From Pseudarthrobacter sp. NamB4 (GTDB taxonomy: Bacteria > Actinomycetota > Actinomycetes > Actinomycetales > Micrococcaceae): a stretch of DNA of 64,000 nucleotides. Shown here piece after piece: positions 2,284-56,522 of the stretch. The stretch is from positions 124,001 to 188,000 of the forward strand of contig NZ_VAHM01000004.1 of assembly GCF_005796185.1 (NCBI RefSeq), given 5' to 3'. Numbering within the stretch: position 1 is the stretch's first letter; each line of letters starts with the position of its first letter. The notes beneath the pieces were generated by a model. The model did not search any database. It was not told where the DNA came from and saw nothing but the letters and a program-made list of their open reading frames with translations. The position numbers were made by a program, and so were the translations under genes.

Positions 2284-3086
2284 GCAAGCACGCCCTTGGT
2301 GTTGACCCGGTGGTTGCCCCTGCCGCGGCTTCCGCGCAGGTGGAGGCCACGGTGGCAACCGCGGTGGCTGAACCTGCCGACCCCAAGCTCCGCAGCAAGG
2401 AAGAGCTGAAGGCCGTGGCCGAGGCCGGCGCCGCCGAGCTCGGCTGGGACGCCCCGGCCCGCGACGTGATCGCCTGGGTGGAGCGGAACTTTGACCTGCC
2501 CGCCGTCGCCGTCGCCTGCTCCATGGCCGACGCCGTCCTGCCCGCCCTGGTGGCGGACCAGATGCCCGGCGTCGACGTCCTGTTCCTGGAGACCGGCTAC
2601 CACTTCCCGGAAACCTACGCCACGCGCGACGAGGTTGCTGCCAACCTCCGCGTCAACGTGGTGGACGTGCTCCCGGAGAACACCGTGGAGCAGCAGGACC
2701 GGCTCCTGGGCAAAAACCTCTTTGCCCGCGATGCCGCCCAGTGCTGCGCCCTCCGCAAGGTGGCCCCGCTCCAGCGCACCCTGGCCAAATACGAACTGTG
2801 GTTCACTGGCGTGCGCCGCGACGAGGCCCCCACCCGCACCAACACCCCGCTGGTGACCTGGGATGAAAAGAACGGGCTGGTCAAGGTCAACCCGATGGCC
2901 GCGTGGACGTTCGACCAGGTGGTCCAGTACTCCGACGACAACCTCCTGCCCGTCAACCCGCTCCTGTCCCAGGGCTACCCGTCCATCGGTTGCCAGCCCT
3001 GCACCCGCAAAGTGGCACCCGGCGAGGACCCCCGCGCCGGCCGCTGGGCAGGAACCAACAAGACAGAATGCGGACTACACGTATGA
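2280..3086 (+). CDS. cysH: Adenylylsulfate (APS) reductase, CysH family
   Basis: The start is GTG at 2280, preceded by AGGAGG with 7 bases of spacing and overlapping the sulfite reductase stop, giving 268 residues. It reduces activated sulfate to sulfite using thioredoxin. The four cysteines that bind [4Fe-4S] in APS-specific enzymes are all present (C155-C156 and C238-X2-C241), as is the C-terminal catalytic cysteine (C264, in TECGLHV). True PAPS reductases lack the cluster cysteines, so APS is the likely substrate; the absence of an APS kinase gene nearby agrees. Residues 1-45 are an Ala/Val/Pro-rich, poorly conserved extension. Confidence 0.92.
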   Translation: MSKHALGVDPVVAPAAASAQVEATVATAVAEPADPKLRSKEELKAVAEAGAAELGWDAPARDVIAWVERNFDLPAVAVACSMADAVLPALVADQMPGVDVLFLETGYHFPETYATRDEVAANLRVNVVDVLPENTVEQQDRLLGKNLFARDAAQCCALRKVAPLQRTLAKYELWFTGVRRDEAPTRTNTPLVTWDEKNGLVKVNPMAAWTFDQVVQYSDDNLLPVNPLLSQGYPSIGCQPCTRKVAPGEDPRAGRWAGTNKTECGLHV

Positions 3087-4027
3087 GCACTTCATTAAGC
3101 GAGGAGACCCAGGTGACTGAGTCCGCCGTCTCAACCAGACTGAGCAGCCTGGACACCCTCGAGTCCGAGGCCATCCACATCATCCGTGAGGTGGTTGCCG
3201 AGTTCGAGAAGCCCGCGCTGCTGTTCTCCGGCGGCAAGGACTCCGTGGTGATGCTGCACCTGGCCACGAAGGCCTTCTGGCCCGGCAAGGTGCCGTTTCC
3301 CGTGCTGCACGTGGACACCGGCCACAACTTCCCCGAGGTCATCGACTTCCGCGACCGCACGGTTGAGCGTCTGGGCCTGAAGCTCGTGGTGGGTTCCGTG
3401 CAGGAGTTCATCGATCGCGGGGAGCTCGCCGAGCGCGCGGACGGCACCCGCAACCCGCTGCAGACCGTGCCGCTGCTGGATGCCATCCAGCAGAACAAGT
3501 TCGACGCCGTGTTCGGCGGCGGCCGCCGCGACGAGGACAAGGCCCGCGCCAAGGAGCGCATTCTGAGCCTGCGGGATGAGTTCGGCCAGTGGGACCCGCG
3601 CAACCAGCGTCCCGAACTGTGGAACCTCTACAACGGCCGCCACACCGTGGGCCAGCACGTCCGCGCATTCCCCATCAGCAACTGGACCGAGCTGGACATC
3701 TGGCGGTACATCGAGCGCGAGAACATCGAGCTGCCCGGGCTGTACTACGCCCACGAGCGCGAGGTCTTCGCCCGAGACGGGATGTGGCGCGCGGTCGGTG
3801 AGGTGTCCCAGCCGCTGCCGCACGAGGAAGTCATCACCAAGACTGTCCGCTACCGCACCGTGGGGGACATGTCCTGCACCGGCGCCGTGGAGTCGGACGC
3901 CTACACGGTGTCTGACGTGGTGATTGAGGTTGCCGCCTCCACCCTGACCGAGCGTGGCGCCACCCGTGCGGACGACCGCATCTCCGAGGCCGCCATGGAA
4001 GACCGCAAGAAGGACGGGTATTTCTAA
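3083..4027 (+). CDS. cysD: Sulfate adenylyltransferase small subunit
   Basis: ATP sulfurylase subunit 2 makes APS from sulfate and ATP together with CysN. The PP-loop SGGKDS is near residues 49-54, and the conserved C-terminal stretch DRISEAAMEDRKKDGYF ends the protein. The ATG at 3083 overlaps the cysH stop (ATGA), giving 314 residues. A GTG at 3113 has a better ribosome site (AGGAG, 6 bases away) and would give 304 residues, closer to the usual 302, so the true start is uncertain. The stop overlaps the cysN start (TAATG), so the two subunits are translationally coupled. Confidence 0.93.
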   Translation: MSTSLSEETQVTESAVSTRLSSLDTLESEAIHIIREVVAEFEKPALLFSGGKDSVVMLHLATKAFWPGKVPFPVLHVDTGHNFPEVIDFRDRTVERLGLKLVVGSVQEFIDRGELAERADGTRNPLQTVPLLDAIQQNKFDAVFGGGRRDEDKARAKERILSLRDEFGQWDPRNQRPELWNLYNGRHTVGQHVRAFPISNWTELDIWRYIERENIELPGLYYAHEREVFARDGMWRAVGEVSQPLPHEEVITKTVRYRTVGDMSCTGAVESDAYTVSDVVIEVAASTLTERGATRADDRISEAAMEDRKKDGYF

Positions 4028-5433
4028 TGACCACCGAAGCAGTTCTCCCGGCGGACCTGGGAACAGCCCTGCCCACCACTCTCTTCCGGTTTGCCACCGC
4101 AGGATCGGTCGACGATGGCAAGTCCACTTTGGTGGGCCGCCTCCTTCACGATTCCAAGGCGATCCTGGCTGACCAGCTCGACGCCGTTGCCAGGACCTCC
4201 GCGGACCGCGGTTTCGGCGGCGACAAGGGCGGCATCGACCTCGCACTGCTGACCGACGGCCTGCGTGCCGAGCGCGAGCAGGGCATCACCATCGACGTGG
4301 CCTACCGCTACTTCGCCACCGACCGCCGCAGCTTCATCCTGGCCGACTGCCCCGGGCACGTCCAGTACACCAAGAACACGGTGACGGGGGCGTCCACTGC
4401 AGATGCCGTCGTCGTACTCATCGACGCTCGGAAAGGCGTGCTGGAGCAGACCCGCCGGCACCTGTCCGTGCTGCAGCTGCTGCGCGTGGCGCACGTGATA
4501 GTGGCCGTAAACAAGATTGACCTGGTGGACTTCAGCGAGTCCGTGTTCCGCGAGATCGAAGCCGATGTGCAGCAGGTGGGCCGCGAGCTGGGCCTGGGCT
4601 CGGACGGCATCAGCGACCTGCTGGTCATCCCGGTATCCGCGCTCGACGGCGACAACGTGGTGGAGCGCTCCGAGCGGACCCCGTGGTACTCCGGCCCGGC
4701 GTTGCTGGAGGTCCTCGAGACCCTCCCGGCAGCCGACGAACTCGAGAGCCACCTGGAGAGCTTCCGCTTTCCGGTGCAGCTGGTCATCCGGCCGCAGGGC
4801 GCCCTGGCCCCCGACGCGGTCGCCGCCGGCCTGGACGTAGAGGCCTACCGCGATTACCGTGCATACGCCGGCCAGATCACCGAAGGCTCGGTGAAGGTGG
4901 GGGACCAGGTGTCCGTGCTGACGCCGGGCCAGGATCCGCGCACCACCACGGTGGTGGGCATTGACTTCGCCGGAGCTTCCCTCGAGGAAGCCGCCGCGCC
5001 GCAGTCCGTTGCCATCCGCCTGGCTGAGGAGTTCGACGTCGCCCGCGGTGACACCATCGCAGCCGCCGGCACCGTCCGGGAAGCCTCGGCCGACCTGTAC
5101 GCCTCGCTCTGCTGGCTGTCCCCGAAGCCGCTCCGCGAAGGTGCCAAGGTCCTGGTCAAGCACGGCACCCGCACCGTCCAGGCCCTGGTCCGCAACGTCA
5201 ACGGCAAACTGGACCTGTCCACCTTCAAGCTGGAGCAGGCCTCCGCCCTGGAGCTGAACGACATCGGCCACGCACAGCTCCGGCTCGCCGCGCCGCTGCC
5301 GCTGGAGAACTACCTGCACCACCGCCGCACCGGTGCCTTCCTGCTGATCGACCCTTTGGACGGCAACACGCTGGCCGCGGGCTTGGTCAAGGACCACCCG
5401 GGCGACCACGAGGATGAGCGCTACAGCATCTAG
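4027..5433 (+). CDS. cysN: Sulfate adenylyltransferase large subunit (GTPase)
   Basis: 468 residues. G-protein motifs are intact: G1 SVDDGKST near residue 27, G3 DCPGHVQYTKN, G4 NKID and G5 SAL. GTP hydrolysis drives APS formation by CysD. The protein ends after the EF-Tu-like beta-barrel domains, so it lacks the C-terminal APS-kinase domain that some actinobacterial CysN/NodQ fusions carry. With no cysC in the window, the pathway stops at APS. Last gene of the operon; a hairpin follows. Confidence 0.95.
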   Translation: MTTEAVLPADLGTALPTTLFRFATAGSVDDGKSTLVGRLLHDSKAILADQLDAVARTSADRGFGGDKGGIDLALLTDGLRAEREQGITIDVAYRYFATDRRSFILADCPGHVQYTKNTVTGASTADAVVVLIDARKGVLEQTRRHLSVLQLLRVAHVIVAVNKIDLVDFSESVFREIEADVQQVGRELGLGSDGISDLLVIPVSALDGDNVVERSERTPWYSGPALLEVLETLPAADELESHLESFRFPVQLVIRPQGALAPDAVAAGLDVEAYRDYRAYAGQITEGSVKVGDQVSVLTPGQDPRTTTVVGIDFAGASLEEAAAPQSVAIRLAEEFDVARGDTIAAAGTVREASADLYASLCWLSPKPLREGAKVLVKHGTRTVQALVRNVNGKLDLSTFKLEQASALELNDIGHAQLRLAAPLPLENYLHHRRTGAFLLIDPLDGNTLAAGLVKDHPGDHEDERYSI

Positions 5434-5441
5434 CCTTCCTG

Positions 5442-5505
5442 AAACCGCGGCTTATTCCCAGATCCGGGCCCTGAGGGTTCTGATCCTCGAACAGGCCGCG
5501 GTTTT
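5442..5505 (+). terminator. Probable terminator after cysN
   Basis: AAACCGCGGC (5442-5451) pairs with GCCGCGGTTTT (5495-5505). The loop is long (about 43 bases), but the T run and the position just after the operon support termination. Confidence 0.55.
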
Positions 5506-5690
5506 GTCGTTTGGACTGGTGAGCCGCCGCTCCAAGTACAGGTTCCGGCCCCCAGTGTCGTCCTGCTGAAATCCAAGTACTCGCTACTCGTGCGGGCTGC
5601 TGCGGCACAAGGAGTTAATGGTCAGCGGGGGCACGAGCTTCCTCAGGGACCTGGACGCGACGGCGTTGGGGCGGACCGGTAAGGAGTACC

Positions 5691-6479
5691 GTGGAGAGAT
5701 CGACAGGACATCGGTGGTACAGCCGCGCGGCTGAACTCTTCAGACGGGATTCCGAGGACTGGAGGATCCCGCCGCGGCAGGCACTGCTGCTCGCGCTGCT
5801 CCCTCTTGTCCTCGCCGTCGTCGTAGCGGCCACTGTTCCCTTCAAGGAGTTCTACCTCTGGCTCGTTGACGAGGACTCCCTCATCGAGTGGCTCCAGTTC
5901 CTCTGCCTGCTGGGCGCCTGCATCCTCCTGCCCATCATCACCTTCCGCCTCTTCCGGTCGGGACTGGCGCGCATTGCAGTCCTCTATGGGCTCGTCACAC
6001 TCGGTGTATGGTTCCTCACCGGCGAGGAGATCTCGTGGGGCCAGCGCATCTTTGGCTGGGACACCCCCGAAGACCTGGAAGAGGTCAACCGCCAGGGGGA
6101 AACTACCGTCCACAACATCCGTGGAGTGCAGGAACTGGTCCCTGTCGCCATGCTTCTGGCCAGCCTGTACGGTGCCTGTGTCCCGCTGGTGTCAGCGGCG
6201 CTGGGTGACAGGTGGAGGGGGCTTGCGGCCAGGAAGCTGCTCGTTCCGCCGCTCTGCCTAGTACCGGCGTTCCTGCTGGCCGCGGCCTACCGCCTGTTCC
6301 GCCTGCTGATCTGGCCGGAACCCACATTCGTGATTTCGGAATACGGCGAAGTGATGGAACTATGCCTGTATCTGGGGCTGGCGCTGTTCTGCTGGTTCAA
6401 CCTGCGCCTCCTGCGGCGGCCGCAGCTGGAGGCTGAGACCGGGGATGCGCCCCGCCGCCTGCACCGGAGGGCTATGTAG
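5691..6479 (+). CDS. Multi-pass membrane protein of unknown function
   Basis: 262 residues from a GTG start with AAGGAG about 4 bases upstream. About six hydrophobic segments are visible. A conserved block near the middle (GEEISWGQRIFGW, then TP and a later GET...HN) recurs, from memory, in uncharacterised bacterial membrane proteins, so this is a real conserved family rather than an orphan. No enzymatic motif or substrate can be assigned. It stands alone between the cysN terminator and rtcB. Confidence 0.7.
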   Translation: MERSTGHRWYSRAAELFRRDSEDWRIPPRQALLLALLPLVLAVVVAATVPFKEFYLWLVDEDSLIEWLQFLCLLGACILLPIITFRLFRSGLARIAVLYGLVTLGVWFLTGEEISWGQRIFGWDTPEDLEEVNRQGETTVHNIRGVQELVPVAMLLASLYGACVPLVSAALGDRWRGLAARKLLVPPLCLVPAFLLAAAYRLFRLLIWPEPTFVISEYGEVMELCLYLGLALFCWFNLRLLRRPQLEAETGDAPRRLHRRAM

Positions 6480-48780: not shown

Positions 48781-50166
48781 ATGAAGTACGCCCAGTCCAT
48801 CCTGGACCTCATCGGCAACACCCCGCTCATCAAACTCAACCATGTGACCGGGGGCATCAAGGCCACCGTCCTGGTGAAACTGGAGTATCTGAACCCGGGC
48901 GGATCCATTAAGGACCGCATCGCTGCACAGATGATCGAGGACGCTGAGCGTGAAGGGAAACTGCAGCCGGGCGGCACCATCGTCGAGCCCACCTCAGGCA
49001 ACACCGGCGTCGGCCTGGCCCTGGTGGCGCAGCAAAAGGGCTACAAGTGTGTGTTCGTGGTCCCGGACAAGGTGGGCGAGGACAAGCGCGCCGTGCTGCA
49101 GGCATACGGCGCCGAGGTTGTGGTCACGCCCACCTCCGTCCCGCCGGACAGTCCACAAAGCTACTACGGCGTTTCGGACCGGATTACCCGGGATACCCCC
49201 GGTGCATTCAAACCGGACCAGTTCTCCAACCCGGCGGCACCCGGCAGCCACTACAAGACCACCGGCCCGGAGATCTGGCGGGACACCGACGGAAGGGTCA
49301 CCCACTGTGTCATCGGCGCCGGCACCGGCGGCACCATCACCGGTACGGGGCGCTACCTGAAGGAGGTTTCGGCTGGGAGGCCGGAGTCCGACGGCGGCGT
49401 GGTCCGGATCATCGGCGCCGACCCCGAGGGTTCGGTCTACTCCGGCGGCACGGGACGCCCGTACTTCGTGGAGGGCGTGGGGGAGGACATGTGGCCGGCG
49501 AACTACGACAAGTCGGTTCCGGACCAGGTCATCGCCGTCAGCGACGCTGAGTCCTTCGCCATGACCCGCCGCCTCGCCCGCGAAGAGGGCCTCCTGGTGG
49601 GCGGCTCGTCCGGCATGGCTGTGGTGGCCGCGCTGCAGGCGGCGCGGGACCTCCCGGAAAGTGCCGTCGTCGTCGTCATCCTGCCCGACTCGGGGCGCGG
49701 CTACCTGGCAAAAATCTTCAACGACCAGTGGATGCGCTCCTACGGTTTCCTCTCCGGAGGGGAGGAAACGTCCGTGGGCGAGGTCATCAAGTCCAAGACC
49801 GGCGAACTGCCGGACCTGGTCCACATCCACCCGAACGAGTCCGTCCGGGACGTCATCAACATCATGAACGAGTTCGGTGTCAGCCACATTCCGGTCCTGT
49901 CCCAGGAGCCGCCGGTGGTCATGGGGGAGGTCCTCGGCGCGGTGGACGAGCGCACGCTGACCGCCAAGCTGTTCCGGGGCGAAGCCAGGCTCACGGACAA
50001 GATCTCCGAGCACATGGGCCCCAAACTGCCCGTGATCGGATCGCTGGAAACCATCTCGGCTGCCAGGGAACTGCTCTCGGACGTGGACACCGTCATGGTC
50101 ACGTTCGTTGGGGCGCCCATCGGCATCCTCACCCGGCACGACCTGCTCGCCTACCTCAGCAACTAA
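48781..50166 (+). CDS. Cystathionine beta-synthase
   Basis: 461 residues. The PLP domain has the lysine in NPGGSIKDRI, TSGNTGVGLALV and GSSGMAVVAAL. Residues 340-461 are a C-terminal CBS pair (VHIHPNESVRDVINIMNEFGV), as in the eukaryote-like enzyme; no N-terminal heme motif is present. It joins homocysteine to serine. The next gene handles cystathionine, so the pair completes reverse transsulfuration to cysteine. Confidence 0.93.
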   Translation: MKYAQSILDLIGNTPLIKLNHVTGGIKATVLVKLEYLNPGGSIKDRIAAQMIEDAEREGKLQPGGTIVEPTSGNTGVGLALVAQQKGYKCVFVVPDKVGEDKRAVLQAYGAEVVVTPTSVPPDSPQSYYGVSDRITRDTPGAFKPDQFSNPAAPGSHYKTTGPEIWRDTDGRVTHCVIGAGTGGTITGTGRYLKEVSAGRPESDGGVVRIIGADPEGSVYSGGTGRPYFVEGVGEDMWPANYDKSVPDQVIAVSDAESFAMTRRLAREEGLLVGGSSGMAVVAALQAARDLPESAVVVVILPDSGRGYLAKIFNDQWMRSYGFLSGGEETSVGEVIKSKTGELPDLVHIHPNESVRDVINIMNEFGVSHIPVLSQEPPVVMGEVLGAVDERTLTAKLFRGEARLTDKISEHMGPKLPVIGSLETISAARELLSDVDTVMVTFVGAPIGILTRHDLLAYLSN

Positions 50167-50175
50167 AGGAGCATC

Positions 50176-51339
50176 ATGTCCTTCTCCGGAAACCAGGGCT
50201 TCAACACCCGCGCCGTCCACGCCGGGCAGGATTTCGAGCCGCGCACCGGTGCCGTGGTCCCGCCCGTGCACTTCGCCACCACCTACGCGCAGGACGGCAT
50301 TGGCGGCCTCCGCGAAGGGTATGAATACAGCCGTGGCGGCAACCCCACCCGGGACGCGCTGCAGGAACAGCTGGCCGCGCTGGAGCTGGGTACGCATGCC
50401 TTCAGCTTCGGCTCGGGCCTCGCGGCGGAGGACTCTCTGATCCGTGCCCTGGCCGGCCCCGGGGACCACATCGTGCTTGGCAACGATGCTTACGGCGGGA
50501 CCTACCGGCTGATCAGCCGCGTGCTCGGCCCGTGGGGAATCGGCAACACCCCGGTGGACATGGCCGACCTGGACACCGTCCGGCAGGCCGTAGCCGCCAA
50601 CAGGGCCCGTTTGCTCTGGGTGGAGACGCCGTCCAACCCGCTGATGAAGATCACCGACATCGCGGCGCTCGCGGAAATCGCACACGACGCCGGGGCCCTC
50701 CTGGTCGTCGACAACACCTTCGCGTCCCCCTACCTGCAGACCCCGCTCGCCCTGGGCGCCGACGTCGTGGTCCACTCCACCACCAAGTACATCGGCGGGC
50801 ATTCGGACGTGGTGGGCGGCGCCGTTGTCGTCAAGGACGCCGAGCTGGCGGAGAAGATCGGTTTCCTCCAGTTCGCTGTGGGCGCCGTCTCCGGCCCCAT
50901 GGATGCCTTCCTCACCACCCGCGGCCTCAAGACCCTGGGCGTGCGGATGGACCGGCACAGCCTCAACGGCCAGGCCGTGGCCGAGTGGCTGCTTGAACGC
51001 CCCGAGGTTGAAAGCGTCCTCTACCCGGGCCTGCCATCACACCCGGGGCACGAGCTGGCGAAGAAGCAGATGCGGAATTTCGGCGGCATGGTGTCCGTGC
51101 AGTTCAAGGGCGGCGAAGCTGCTGCACGGAAGGTGGCGGAGTCCACGAAGGTCTTCATGCTGGCGGAGTCCCTCGGCGGCATCGAGTCACTGATGAACTA
51201 CCCGTCGGAGATGACGCACGCGTCCGTCAAGGGCACAGAGCTCGCCGTTCCGGTGAACCTGCTTCGCCTGTCCTGCGGCATCGAGGACGTAGAGGACCTG
51301 GTCGCAGACCTGGAGCAGGCCTTCACCTCCATCCCGTAG
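50176..51339 (+). CDS. Cystathionine gamma-synthase / gamma-lyase
   Basis: 387 residues with AAAGGAG 7-8 bases before the ATG. Cys/Met-metabolism PLP family: PLP lysine in HSTTKYIGGHSD, YSRGGNPTRDALQEQLAALE, and a SLGGIESLMNYPSEMTHAS C-terminal block. The family splits into gamma-synthase and gamma-lyase, which are hard to tell apart by eye. Next to cystathionine beta-synthase with a 9-base gap, a lyase working with it to make cysteine is favoured by context, while actinobacterial annotation often says synthase. Confidence 0.88.
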   Translation: MSFSGNQGFNTRAVHAGQDFEPRTGAVVPPVHFATTYAQDGIGGLREGYEYSRGGNPTRDALQEQLAALELGTHAFSFGSGLAAEDSLIRALAGPGDHIVLGNDAYGGTYRLISRVLGPWGIGNTPVDMADLDTVRQAVAANRARLLWVETPSNPLMKITDIAALAEIAHDAGALLVVDNTFASPYLQTPLALGADVVVHSTTKYIGGHSDVVGGAVVVKDAELAEKIGFLQFAVGAVSGPMDAFLTTRGLKTLGVRMDRHSLNGQAVAEWLLERPEVESVLYPGLPSHPGHELAKKQMRNFGGMVSVQFKGGEAAARKVAESTKVFMLAESLGGIESLMNYPSEMTHASVKGTELAVPVNLLRLSCGIEDVEDLVADLEQAFTSIP

Positions 51340-52308: not shown

Positions 52309-53835
52309 TTAGTTGGGGGAGGGGGCTCGGGAGTGAGCCGCCCTGGCCTGGCCCGTGAAGTAACCGCGGGTCGAGGGTGCGAACCGGCAGAGGACAGCGA
52401 GCACTACGCCCACCGCCAGCAGCAGCACTCCGCTGACGAAGGCCCCGCCGACACCGAAGATCTCTGTGTCGCCGTATGCCGGGTCCCACATCTGCACGGC
52501 TGAGATGAAGAAAGCAGCAGTGAGCAGCAGCGCGCCCGTCAAGGGCAGGATGCCCCGGAACCACAGGTTGCGCGCCGAGTCGCGCAGGGTGCCCCGGAAG
52601 AACCAGTAGCAGGCGAAGCCGGTGAGCGCGTAGTAAAAGGCGATGAACAGGCTGATGGCGCTGATTGAGTCCGAGAGAAGGTTTTCGCTCAGGAAGCTCA
52701 TGGCCACGTAGTAGGCGATGGCCGCCGCGCCCATCACCTGCGTCGAGAAACCGGGGGTCTTGTTCTTCGGGTGCACCTCGCCGAACTTGGCAGGCAGGGC
52801 ACCGTGGACACCCATGGAGAGGGTCCCGCGCGCGGTGGGCAGGATGGTGGTCTGCGTCGAGGACAGCACCGAGGCAAGAACCGCGACGACGATCAGCCAG
52901 CCCCACGGGCCCAGCACCACATCCTTCATGGCCACGAACACGTCGTCCTGGTTCGCTTCGTTGCCAAGGCCGATGCCCTCGCTGCCCACAGTGGCGTACA
53001 TCATCACCAGCAGGGCCACGGACACATAGATCGCCACCAGGACGAAGGCGGAGATGACAGCACCGCGGCCCGGCGTGGTGCTCGGGTTTTCGGTCTCCTC
53101 ATTGACGGCCAGGCAGGTATCCCAGCCCCAGTAGATAAACAGGGCCAACAGTGCGCCATGCACGACGGCACCGGGATCGGCAAAGGCACCTACCGGGTTG
53201 AACCACTCAAAGTCGAAGGCCTGGCCCTCCGGCGCCCCGCCCACGATGCGGATGATGATGGCCAGCGCAAAGATACCCAGCGAGACGTACTGGATGTAGG
53301 TCAGTACCCGCTGGACATGCTCACCCAGCCGGATCCCACGGTAATTAACCAGCGTCATCACGGCAATGAACAGCACTCCGGTGAGCGTGACCAGCACCTT
53401 GTTTTCTGCAAGCGACCCATCACCGATCAGCAACCACAGGTACTGTCCGGCCACCTGGGCCAGGTTGGCCAGGACCACGATGCCCGCGAGCGCCACGCCC
53501 CAGCCGCCCAACCAGCCCGCCCAAGGGCCGAAGGCCCGCCGGGACCAGGTGAACGTGGTGCCGCAGTCCGGGATGGCGCTGTTCAGCTCACGGAAGGCGT
53601 AGGCGATGAACAGGACAGGGATAAACCCGATGAGCAGGATCAACGGAGTGTAGTTCCCGTTCACCGCCACGATGAGGCCCAGTGTGGCTGCCAGTGAGTA
53701 CACCGGCGCGGTGGACGCCAGTCCGAGCATCACGGAATCACCAAGGTCCAGGATTCCGGCGCGGAGTCCCTTGGCCGGGATCGTACTGCCGGGCGGGCCG
53801 CCCGGGCCGCCCGCCGTCGTCATTTCTGTGCTCAT
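52309..53835 (-). CDS. APC-family permease linked to a ygiBC pair
   Basis: 508 residues from the ATG at 53835, twelve membrane segments. GDSVMLGLASTAPVYSLAATLG is the first segment and FIYWGWDTCLAVNEETENP the conserved loop, both typical of the APC superfamily. It starts 13 bases after the end of the ATP-grasp gene, so it is the third gene of that operon. A polyamine, peptide or amino acid substrate is plausible given the partner enzyme's glutathionylspermidine-synthase fold; not proven. Confidence 0.85.
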   Translation of the reverse strand: MSTEMTTAGGPGGPPGSTIPAKGLRAGILDLGDSVMLGLASTAPVYSLAATLGLIVAVNGNYTPLILLIGFIPVLFIAYAFRELNSAIPDCGTTFTWSRRAFGPWAGWLGGWGVALAGIVVLANLAQVAGQYLWLLIGDGSLAENKVLVTLTGVLFIAVMTLVNYRGIRLGEHVQRVLTYIQYVSLGIFALAIIIRIVGGAPEGQAFDFEWFNPVGAFADPGAVVHGALLALFIYWGWDTCLAVNEETENPSTTPGRGAVISAFVLVAIYVSVALLVMMYATVGSEGIGLGNEANQDDVFVAMKDVVLGPWGWLIVVAVLASVLSSTQTTILPTARGTLSMGVHGALPAKFGEVHPKNKTPGFSTQVMGAAAIAYYVAMSFLSENLLSDSISAISLFIAFYYALTGFACYWFFRGTLRDSARNLWFRGILPLTGALLLTAAFFISAVQMWDPAYGDTEIFGVGGAFVSGVLLLAVGVVLAVLCRFAPSTRGYFTGQARAAHSRAPSPN

Positions 53836-53848
53836 GTTGCCACCGGAT

Positions 53849-55060
53849 TCATAGTGCAATACCTGCTTTGCTGGAGGAGGGTACGGCCGAAAGCGGCGCC
53901 GGCGCGTCAATGGTGTTGGGCACGAAGCGGCAGAAGTAGTCCGTCACGGGGCCGTCCGACTCGCGGATCCCGCAGCCCACGGACTCGCCGTCCACCACCC
54001 ACAGGCCCAGGACGGGGTGGTTGCCGTCGAAGTCGGGCAGTTGCTGGTACTGCTGGTAGCACCAGCCCTCGCGGCCGTACCCGCCGGGCTGTTCAAGGTT
54101 GATGCCATCGGCGTGGATGCGAATGTTGTCGCCTTCGCGGCCGTGCAGGGGTTTGGCCACCCACTCCTTCAGCGGCCCCGGTTCGTTGAGGAAGGCCGGC
54201 AGCAGGTTGGGGTGCTTCGGGTACAGGTGCCAGAGCGCGGCGAGGAGTGCTTTGTTGGAAAGCAGCATCTTCCAGGCAGGCTCCACCCAGCGCGGATTAT
54301 GGGCCCGTTCAAGCAGCCGGTGGCCGAACGGCTCCTTCATCATCAGCTCCCATGGATAGAGCTTGAAGATGGTGCTGATCATGAAGTTGTCCAGGTCCAC
54401 GAAACGGTTCAGGTTCGGGTCCCAGCCGATATCGGACATGTTGATGCCGATGGTGGTCCACCCGGCCTGGCTCGCCACGTCCCGCATGTAGGCGGCCGTC
54501 ATCCAGTCCTCGCCGGACTCCTCGACTTCTGAATGGGCCACATGCAGGGTGCTCATGCCGGTGCGGTACTGGAACTTCTTCCACTGTCTGATCAGCGCCT
54601 CGTGGATTCCGTTCCACTGGTCCTTTTCCGGAAAAACATCCTGCAGCCAGAACCATTGGGCCACTGCTGCCTCAATCAGGCCGGTGGGAGTGTCCGCGTT
54701 GTACTCGAGCATCTTGGCCGGGCCGCCCTGCCCGTCATAGATGAAGTCGAACCGGCCGTAGACGTCCAGGTCCCCTGCCTGGAGCGATTCGGCAGCCAGC
54801 TCCAGCGCCTGCGGGCCGATCCCGAGCTGACCCATGGCGCCGGTGGCGAGGAAGCGTGCGGCCTCCAGGCACATCTTGTGCATGTCCTCCGCGGCCACCT
54901 CAAGGGTTTCCACCTCGCCCATGGTGAATTCGTAGTACGCGGACTCGTTCCAGTACTCGATCCTGCGTCCGTCGTCCATCGTGGTGGTGGAGAACACCAG
55001 GCCTTGTTCCTCGATTTTCTGCTTCCAGCCGGGCCTGGGTTCAGACAGCAAACGCTTCAC
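53849..55060 (-). CDS. Glutathionylspermidine synthase-family ATP-grasp protein (YgiC-like)
   Basis: 403 residues. The sequence follows E. coli YgiC closely in layout: RPGWKQKIEEQGLVF, AYYEFTMGEVETLE, LEYNADTPTGLIEAA, LFKLYPWELMMKEPFG, SNKALLAALWHLYPKHPNLLPA and VAKPLHGREGDNI. It has the ATP-grasp synthase half but no amidase domain. It probably forms an amide between a peptide and an amine; E. coli YgiC's own product is uncertain. The gene lies between the ygiB-like gene (2-base gap) and the permease. Confidence 0.88.
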   Translation of the reverse strand: MKRLLSEPRPGWKQKIEEQGLVFSTTTMDDGRRIEYWNESAYYEFTMGEVETLEVAAEDMHKMCLEAARFLATGAMGQLGIGPQALELAAESLQAGDLDVYGRFDFIYDGQGGPAKMLEYNADTPTGLIEAAVAQWFWLQDVFPEKDQWNGIHEALIRQWKKFQYRTGMSTLHVAHSEVEESGEDWMTAAYMRDVASQAGWTTIGINMSDIGWDPNLNRFVDLDNFMISTIFKLYPWELMMKEPFGHRLLERAHNPRWVEPAWKMLLSNKALLAALWHLYPKHPNLLPAFLNEPGPLKEWVAKPLHGREGDNIRIHADGINLEQPGGYGREGWCYQQYQQLPDFDGNHPVLGLWVVDGESVGCGIRESDGPVTDYFCRFVPNTIDAPAPLSAVPSSSKAGIAL

Positions 55061-55062
55061 GC

Positions 55063-55695
55063 TCAGCCCCCCGAGACTTTGCTGCCGCCGCCGCTGGTGC
55101 CGCTCTTGGCGCTGGTGCCGAAGCCGCCGCGGCTGACAGTGCCGCCTTTGGTGCTGTAGCCGGTGGCCACCTTGGCGCCGCTGGGCACCGTTTTGCTGTA
55201 GTTGGGGGCTGTAGAGCGGTTCTGGCCGATCGGCGGAACGTAGGCGCCGCGGGAGAAAAAGTACCAGGCGTAGATGCCGCCGGAGCGCCCGGCTGAGCTG
55301 TCGCAGCTGGTGTCCTCCACGCGCTCACCGGTTTCGTCGTTGAAGCACACCTGCGCGTACTCGGGATCGTCCTGGTTGCTTGCCACGACGGCGGTGATGG
55401 TGCCGGCGAGCAGGGCGGTAACGCCGAGGCCTACGACGACGGTGCGGCGCTGGGAGCGCTTCTTCCGTGCCGCTGCCTCATCCAGCTGCCTTTCCCGGTC
55501 CCGCGCAAACGGGTCCACCGGCGCTAGGGGTTCATTGAGCAGCTCGGGGCGGAGTTCGGGCTTGGGCACCTGCCAGGGAGGCGGCTTCGCGGCGCCTCCG
55601 GTCCCGGAGTCCCGGCCGCTTTGACCGGCAGGCCCGTCGCCGCCGGCTGGCCCGTGATCCGGATCCCTGCCCGGGTCCTTTTTGTCCGGGTCCAT
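55063..55695 (-). CDS. YgiB/DUF1190-like membrane-anchored protein
   Basis: 210 residues from the ATG at 55695 (AGGGGGA upstream). A hydrophilic N-terminus of 80 residues, one membrane segment (TVVVGLGVTALLAGTITAVVA), then an outside domain with a Cys pair (VCFNDETGERVEDTSC). The C-terminal stretch TVSRGGFGTSAKS matches the TVTRGGFG tail of E. coli YgiB. Its pairing with the YgiC-like gene supports this. Function unknown. Confidence 0.75.
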   Translation of the reverse strand: MDPDKKDPGRDPDHGPAGGDGPAGQSGRDSGTGGAAKPPPWQVPKPELRPELLNEPLAPVDPFARDRERQLDEAAARKKRSQRRTVVVGLGVTALLAGTITAVVASNQDDPEYAQVCFNDETGERVEDTSCDSSAGRSGGIYAWYFFSRGAYVPPIGQNRSTAPNYSKTVPSGAKVATGYSTKGGTVSRGGFGTSAKSGTSGGGSKVSGG

Positions 55696-55853
55696 GGCGT
55701 CCCCCTCAATAGTCCAGATGAATTGGGCGCAGCGCTGCACCCCCAATTGCAAATCCTCGAATCAGCGTAGCCCCTGCGGACGCCTGCTGCGAGTAAGGAA
55801 CAGGCGGGAAGTGCCCATCCCGCGAAGTTGCCGGCCACGGCAGCCGCGGACCC

Positions 55854-55859
55854 TACACT
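55854..55859 (+). promoter_or_regulatory. -10 box 6 bases before the MOSC gene
   Basis: TACACT, then 6 bases and ATG at 55866, without a ribosome site: the same leaderless spacing as the sulfur genes. No good -35 is visible. Confidence 0.4.
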
Positions 55860-55865
55860 TGAGCC

Positions 55866-56522
55866 ATGGAAACCGCTTCTGTCCTCGCCGTCTGCCGTGT
55901 CCACCAGCTCTTGCCGGACACGTCGAACGTGGGCGTGACGGCCATTGACAAGCGAGCTGTGGAAGGGCCGGTGAAGGTTCACAAGCTGGGCGTCCAGGGT
56001 GATATCCAGGCGAACCGGGTCCACCACGGCGGCCCGGACCAGGCCCTCTACGCCTACTCGCAGGCGGACGCCGACTTCTGGGCCGCGGAACTCCAGCGGG
56101 AGCTGCCGCCGGGGTTCTTCGGCGAGAACCTCCGTGTCGGGGGTCTGGACGCCACCGGCGCCGTCATCGGGGAACGCTGGAAGATCGGCGTGGACGTGGA
56201 GGTGGAGGTGACGTCACCGCGGACGCCCTGCTCCACCTTCCAGCGCCGGGTGGGGGAGCCCCGGTTCGTAAAGCGTTTCACGGAAGAGGGCCGCGTGGGC
56301 GCCTATCTTCGCGTGGTGCGCGTGGGCACTATCCGCGCGGGCGACCACATCCATAAGTTGTACGTCCCGAAGCACGGCGTCACGGTGGGCAAGTGGTTCA
56401 GTGAACCGGACCTGGAGTCCATGGAGGCGCTGCGGGATGCAGAGGCCGACGGCGACATCCGCCTCCAGCAGCCGGAGTTCAGCAGGAAGTTTGCGGCGCT
56501 GGAGCGGCAGCTGGCTCGGTAG
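55866..56522 (+). CDS. MOSC-domain protein (YiiM-like)
   Basis: 218 residues. The MOSC core has GVQGDIQANRVHHGGPDQALYAY, FFGENLRVGGLDA and the conserved Cys in TSPRTPCSTFQRR, the likely molybdenum-cofactor sulfur carrier or ligand. YiiM-type proteins reduce N-hydroxylated bases with partners. Single gene, divergent from the ygiBC-type operon. Confidence 0.88.
   Translation: METASVLAVCRVHQLLPDTSNVGVTAIDKRAVEGPVKVHKLGVQGDIQANRVHHGGPDQALYAYSQADADFWAAELQRELPPGFFGENLRVGGLDATGAVIGERWKIGVDVEVEVTSPRTPCSTFQRRVGEPRFVKRFTEEGRVGAYLRVVRVGTIRAGDHIHKLYVPKHGVTVGKWFSEPDLESMEALRDAEADGDIRLQQPEFSRKFAALERQLAR

Follow-up and report, generated by a model that had tools for sequence, protein, structure and literature searches.

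The window considered here, a stretch of 64,000 nucleotides from Pseudarthrobacter sp. NamB4 (contig NZ_VAHM01000004.1), carries on its minus strand a unit of three genes, which code for a YgiB-like protein (P0003), a YgiC-like ATP-grasp acid-amine ligase (P0002) and a permease of the APC superfamily (P0001), in this order (Table 1). ygiB is separated from ygiC by 2 nt and ygiC from the permease gene by 13 nt, so that the coordinates and spacing in the initial annotation, which had described a ygiB-ygiC pair with a permease as third gene, were correct. The unit is a new form of a known operon: to the known ygiB-ygiC pair it adds a third gene that is conserved and specific to the lineage. The 13-nt gap between ygiC and the permease gene contains no terminator-like or promoter-like site, and a sigma-70 scan of the gap upstream of ygiB yielded no site. 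Against the window copy, the median dN/dS amounts to 0.072 in ygiC, 0.085 in the permease gene and 0.19 in ygiB, so that all three genes are under purifying selection. Our literature search, which did not extend to subscription papers or supplements, turned up no APC permease reported next to ygiBC, and the terms 'APC' and 'amino acid permease' are absent from the main text of the PSP survey PMC11237479.

Table 1. Features of the three-gene unit and of the four-gene operons used for comparison (window positions, unless a locus is named)
Feature	Position	Strand	Remarks
YgiB-like protein P0003	55063..55695	minus	210 amino acids, ATG at 55695; opens the unit
YgiC-like ATP-grasp acid-amine ligase P0002	53849..55060	minus	403 amino acids, GTG at 55060
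APC-superfamily permease P0001	52309..53835	minus	508 amino acids, ATG at 53835
170-nt gap between ygiB and the divergent gene at 55866	55696..55865	.	probable operon promoter site, judged from position only
First helix region of P0001, residues 34-58, GLASTAPVYSLAATLG	53662..53736	minus	aligns with PuuP/PlaP 'GLAYLTPM-TVFDTFG'
Single hydrophobic segment of P0003, residues 86-104	55384..55440	minus	probable membrane anchor, from hydropathy
Cys131 to Cys117 of P0003	55303..55347	minus	conserved Cys pair past the anchor; each Cys kept in all 78 loci tallied there
RGGFG tail of P0003, residues 189-193	55117..55131	minus	13-row alignment
Four-gene operon, L126	L126:2746-6284		permease-ygiB-DUF350-ygiC
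Four-gene operon, L180	L180 about 2619-6250		permease-ygiB-DUF350-ygiC; in reverse-complement orientation

The ligase and its YgiB-like partner

P0002, the sole PF03738 match in the 3.8-Mb host genome, covers this profile (GSP_synth) over its full length (positions 1-371 of 371; 488.3 bits, cut-off 29.3). Among solved structures it reaches 263 bits with E. coli YgiC (PDB 7uk8) and 232 bits with YjfC (7uk6), and lower scores with trypanothione synthetase (109 bits) and GspS (64 bits). The residues at GspS R316, D318, E330, N332, K498, K533 and R598 are identical in 7/7 rows of an alignment of P0002, E. coli YgiC, YjfC and GspS and three Actinomycete relatives, and we take these seven ATP-grasp residues to be catalytic. 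In other respects P0002 differs from GspS: it lacks the amidase domain, is 23% identical over the alignment and scores 97 bits where 882 are needed for the NCBIfam equivalog. Its nearest named relatives, with up to 98% identity, are found in Pseudarthrobacter and Arthrobacter.

According to the initial annotation the E. coli pair has no settled function, a statement that is partly outdated because YgiC and YjfC have already been reported as peptide-spermidine ligases. Work by Pederick in 2023 is said to have found this activity in vitro for both E. coli proteins, and Sui in 2012 reportedly observed no GspS activity in YgiC. Both YgiC and YjfC are named peptide-spermidine ligases in the RefSeq record of E. 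coli K-12. Beyond the in-vitro activity we found no agreed physiological substrate for either protein.

The E. coli K-12 locus tolC-ygiB-ygiC likewise has ygiB followed by ygiC in tandem, with 5 nt between the two genes there and 2 nt here. P0002 is 38% identical to E. coli YgiC over the alignment, and P0003 shares the GG-G tail and the Cys pair with E. coli YgiB. The E. coli locus differs, however, in having no adjoining permease, the next gene being ygiD on the other strand, and in the lipobox-like Cys of YgiB, which is a Thr in P0003. P0003 scores 14 bits (E 0.065) against DUF1190 (PF06693), below the curated cut-off of 22, and is therefore named YgiB-like and not a DUF1190 member; an hhalign comparison of its profile with DUF1190 aligned 30 columns, comprising the anchor only, with a probability of 79.9. 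The hydrophobic segment of P0003 is preceded by a basic stretch and followed by Cys117 and Cys131, in agreement with the single membrane anchor and outside Cys pair first proposed for this protein. In an alignment of 13 rows that includes E. coli YgiB and YjfM, C131 is invariant and C117 nearly so, and the tail residues G190, G191 and G193 are invariant as well. A lipobox-like Cys motif is present in 5/13 rows; Thr99, at the lipobox Cys position of some relatives, occurs in 79/79 tallied loci of the window's lineage.

Two plasmid records name the trio's YgiB-like gene 'tRNA-dihydrouridine synthase' (L389:4501-4998 on NZ_CP061722.1 and L390:4376-4879 on NZ_CP099467.1). This looks like a wrong name, because the products of 165 and 167 amino acids match no Pfam family at E 1.

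Distribution of the permease linkage

Relatives of P0002 occur in 39/197 genomes of the window's family, the Micrococcaceae. Of the 30 loci located, 23 have the permease immediately downstream on the same strand, as against 0/9 of the remaining loci, and it thus adjoins ygiC in 23/39 altogether; two of the nine are undeterminable, with contigs that end at or just past ygiC. In the YgiC tree two family genomes without the permease (G071 and G031) fall inside the trio clade, and the other non-linked ones are more distant. A scan of named genomes with P0002, of which the best 80 of 101 relatives were kept, yielded Arthrobacter-group loci with a downstream permease in 80/80 cases and a ygiB-like gene in 79/80, the one locus without it having a contig edge 74 nt before ygiC. 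The commonest gap between ygiC and the permease gene is -4 nt (32/80 named loci, estimated by extension to the first residue of P0001). Since the scan started from P0002, these loci represent close kin and demonstrate stability of the arrangement, not independence. The permease linkage, for which the initial annotation had suggested a survey of YgiC neighbourhoods, thus extends beyond this genome.

Two family loci deserve separate mention. In one of the 23 linked loci (L111, genome G144) the permease beside ygiC is split across frames, either because the gene is broken or through a sequencing error. The other locus belongs to a family genome that lacks the permease; here a gamma-glutamylcyclotransferase-like gene follows ygiC on the same strand (L046:5082-5549; GGACT, PF06094, 75 bits), perhaps a hint of gamma-glutamyl-amine chemistry, or chance.

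Outside the family, an order sample contained 24 ygiC genomes and a class sample 66 new ones; neighbourhoods in 20 and 40 of these, respectively, were searched with profiles in all stop-free frames. The permease was found downstream in one of the 20 order-sample loci (L144) and upstream in another (L126), and upstream in one of the 40 class-sample loci (L180), whose order recurs by coordinates in genome G641. L126 and L180 share a tight four-gene operon (Table 1), a second gene order for the linkage, in which, with the nearest starts used, the permease gene and ygiB overlap by 4 nt and DUF350 and ygiC by 1 nt. Pfam searches confirmed the permease in L126, L180 and L042, and DUF350 in L134 and L183. 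The linked permeases of L047 and L144, which were found via relatives of P0001, matched no Pfam permease model and are for this reason regarded as more remote.

Among the other Actinomycete ygiC loci sampled, most of those with a recognisable membrane partner carry DUF350 (YjfL), a point not raised in the initial annotation, and because of this the permease seems to mark a lineage variant of the known DUF350-type ygiC operon. Among the 96 loci of the YgiC tree, from which two short rows (L036 and L039) were omitted, 37 have DUF350 only, 23 the permease only, two both genes and 34 neither. All 23 permease-only loci lie inside one supported YgiC clade of 33 rows, and the two loci with both genes lie elsewhere. 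The window locus (L105) gave no DUF350 match. In E. coli yjfIJKLM-yjfC, and in the operons described in PMC11237479, the ligase likewise adjoins a DUF1190/YgiB-like gene and a polytopic membrane protein; there, however, this is DUF350 (YjfL), often accompanied by PspA, whereas the window locus has an APC permease and no DUF350. This survey describes operons that unite a GspS-related ATP-grasp ligase with a K+ channel, DUF350, DUF1190 and DUF2491, and links ATP-grasp/DUF350/DUF1190/K+ channel operons with envelope stress. The permease linkage would add a transport branch to these operons.

The plasmid records, of which 5 of 158 with a ygiC match were examined, show both types of arrangement. 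The trio is present on two Micrococcaceae megaplasmid records (NZ_CP061722.1 and NZ_CP099467.1), with 4-nt overlaps of ygiC and the permease gene and, after one of the trios, a K+ channel gene. A Tsukamurella plasmid has DUF350 after ygiC and an Azospirillum plasmid the order DUF350-DUF1190-ygiC; a Sphingomonas plasmid locus has neither permease nor DUF350 in an incomplete gene table.

It is conceivable that the permease simply replaces DUF350 as a membrane partner or as a component of envelope or ion balance, in which case transport of a ligase substrate would be beside the point. A downstream permease and DUF350 never occur together among 98 loci, and the K+ channel behind a plasmid trio has counterparts in DUF350-type operons (L173, and those in PMC11237479). 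Nevertheless, L126 and L180 possess both DUF350 and a permease, and the visible mutual exclusion does not reach significance when the tree is taken into account. We regard this explanation as distinctly unlikely.

The history of the linkage was approached through the relatives of P0001. A class-wide permease profile search yielded matches in 110/345 genomes at 1e-50. The genome searches scored the best 7 candidates per genome within the family and the best 4 class-wide, and for this reason absence in them is unproven. Background paralogues are about 40-46% identical to P0001 (42% for the second copy in the window's genome). Linked permeases, in turn, diverge from P0001 down to 27% identity, and three genomes (G350, G369 and G624) have no P0001 relative at E 1e-15 other than the linked permease. 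Nineteen unlinked family relatives with known surroundings are 46-58% identical to P0001, and ten of them adjoin a gene that, by eye, resembles saccharopine dehydrogenase. Two such genes that were tested (L216:3771-5003 and L220:3779-4999) match Pfam Sacchrp_dh, and among the NCBIfam models carboxynorspermidine synthase fits them best, with 178 and 155 bits at a cut-off of 800. At least one of the unlinked sister permeases has a TetR gene nearby. The 'sister' permease profile comprised 10 rows, one of which is a more distant L220 paralogue.

A first permease tree, from which six of 63 rows had been left out (five duplicates and one short), suggested that the linkage with ygiC was ancestral to the whole permease subfamily. 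This was weakened when 25 class-wide relatives were added, at least two changes then being needed; the enlarged tree further omits the far row L248, L264 (which is the L180 gene) and 14 close or broken copies. In the approximately unbiased (AU) test a single clade of all 17 linked rows was not rejected (p 0.237), and a clade of the main group with L126 and L180, a subset picked after the tree had been seen, gave p 0.044. We claim neither one nor several origins of the linkage.

These results also bear on the possibility that the three neighbours have just been inherited together, without a joint function. The concentration of the linkage in one YgiC clade and the single origin of linked permeases that the AU test did not reject are compatible with mere co-inheritance, which is nonetheless the least probable of the explanations weighed here: the genes overlap in many loci, occur in two orders and on plasmids and remain under purifying selection, and the linkage is retained by permeases as divergent as those at 27% identity.

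Affinity of the permease and possible cargo

P0001 belongs to the APC permeases, with 103.9 bits against PF13520 (AA_permease_2; cut-off 27) and 81 bits against PF00324. When a profile of ten trio permeases was compared with 12 E. coli APC transporters, our own selection and not the full set of E. coli, the two putrescine:H+ symporters (as annotated) PuuP and PlaP scored 79.8 and 79.3 bits, followed by FrlA (26.2) and GabP (25.1), and PotE, CadB, AdiC and LysP all fell below zero. Where amino-acid members have a GSGIF-like motif, the first helix of P0001 has a PuuP/PlaP-like stretch in the alignment (Table 1), and the sixth-helix motifs of the trio permease and PuuP/PlaP align too. puuP differs in its setting, where it adjoins puuA, a glutamate-putrescine ligase of another family. 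A predicted structure of P0001, built from 15 close sequences, had a mean pLDDT of 41.4 and was set aside.

The second line of evidence comes from polyamine synthesis. AdoMet decarboxylase was found in 0/37 family genomes, 19 of these with the trio, and in 4/59 other ygiC genomes. Spermidine synthase matches occur in 8/37 family genomes, the best with 29.7 bits, and in 33/59 others, 16 of these below 50 bits. No nspC match passed the strict cut-off in 43 genomes, a cut-off that only 1/14 control genomes passed, and none was found over the cut-off in the L216 and L220 genomes where searched. From its gene content, spermidine synthesis by the AdoMet decarboxylase, spermidine synthase or nspC routes is thus unlikely in the window's organism, which would mean that the amine used by the ligase is either imported or another amine. 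The absence of these genes, together with the affinity to PuuP/PlaP, leans towards amine import by the permease. The genes beside unlinked sister permeases whose best model is carboxynorspermidine synthase, albeit below its cut-off, count on the same side.

Several observations weigh against such a conclusion. P0001 is only 22% identical to PuuP and 24% to PlaP, so that the resemblance would be one of function at most, and other models match it as well, all below their cut-offs: the amino-acid transporter model TIGR00909, its best NCBIfam match, with 109 bits (cut-off 557), branched-chain BcaP with 65, the urea-carboxylase permease with 60 and the ethanolamine permease with 49. Its solved relatives are amino-acid transporters, y+L among them, with 47 bits at best. 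Many relatives of P0001 are not located beside ygiC, and two genomes (G161 and G068) each possess an unlinked paralogue that is more closely related to P0001 than their linked permease is. Finally, AdoMet decarboxylase is missing in 35/38 DUF350-type genomes as well (three have it). The gene content consequently supports import in general and not import by this permease, because most DUF350-type genomes share the lack, and missing spermidine synthesis was for that reason dropped as a specific reason for the permease.

The TIGR00909 match and the solved relatives would suit a permease that imports a cationic amino acid, or else the acid partner of the reaction, be it an amino acid or a small peptide, with the amine coming from elsewhere. 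However, LysP and AdiC are among the transporters that score below zero, with PuuP and PlaP far ahead of the other E. coli members, and the first-helix motif of P0001 is PuuP/PlaP-like, so that import of the acid partner appears unlikely, though less so than the other alternatives. Alternatively, the permease could export the finished conjugate or surplus amine, given that APC members include exchangers and exporters and that CadB, AdiC and YjeH of E. coli are annotated as antiporters or exporter. These three, though, rank with the remotest of the 12 transporters, in contrast to the two nearest with their symporter annotation, and we consider export very unlikely.

Our preferred reading is that the three genes form one operon, which couples amine import to ATP-dependent amide formation and so would trap the amine; we put it forward tentatively, at somewhat short of an even chance. 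The permease would bring in a diamine or polyamine by PuuP/PlaP-like symport. Using ATP, the YgiC-like ligase would activate a peptide, or an acid resembling one, at a carboxyl group and join the amine to it, as we infer from E. coli YgiC and YjfC, and the YgiB-like protein may hold the system at the membrane or sense the envelope. The permease would here take the position occupied by DUF350 at many other ygiC loci of Actinomycetes. A more far-reaching version is doubtful: cells without the known spermidine routes might import environmental di- or polyamines and lock them as peptide amides, perhaps on peptides of the wall or on thiol peptides; the operon would then serve both to store amine and to tune the envelope, with DUF350 doing a related membrane job in sister lineages. 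The link between transporter and ligase, in soil bacteria that are easy to culture, offers a direct way in: the cargo of the permease would point to the amine or acid substrate of the ligase.

Elsewhere in the window, at 48781-51339, two adjoining plus-strand open reading frames resemble by eye cystathionine beta-synthase and a cystathionine gamma-synthase/lyase, which are ordinary sulphur amino-acid genes.

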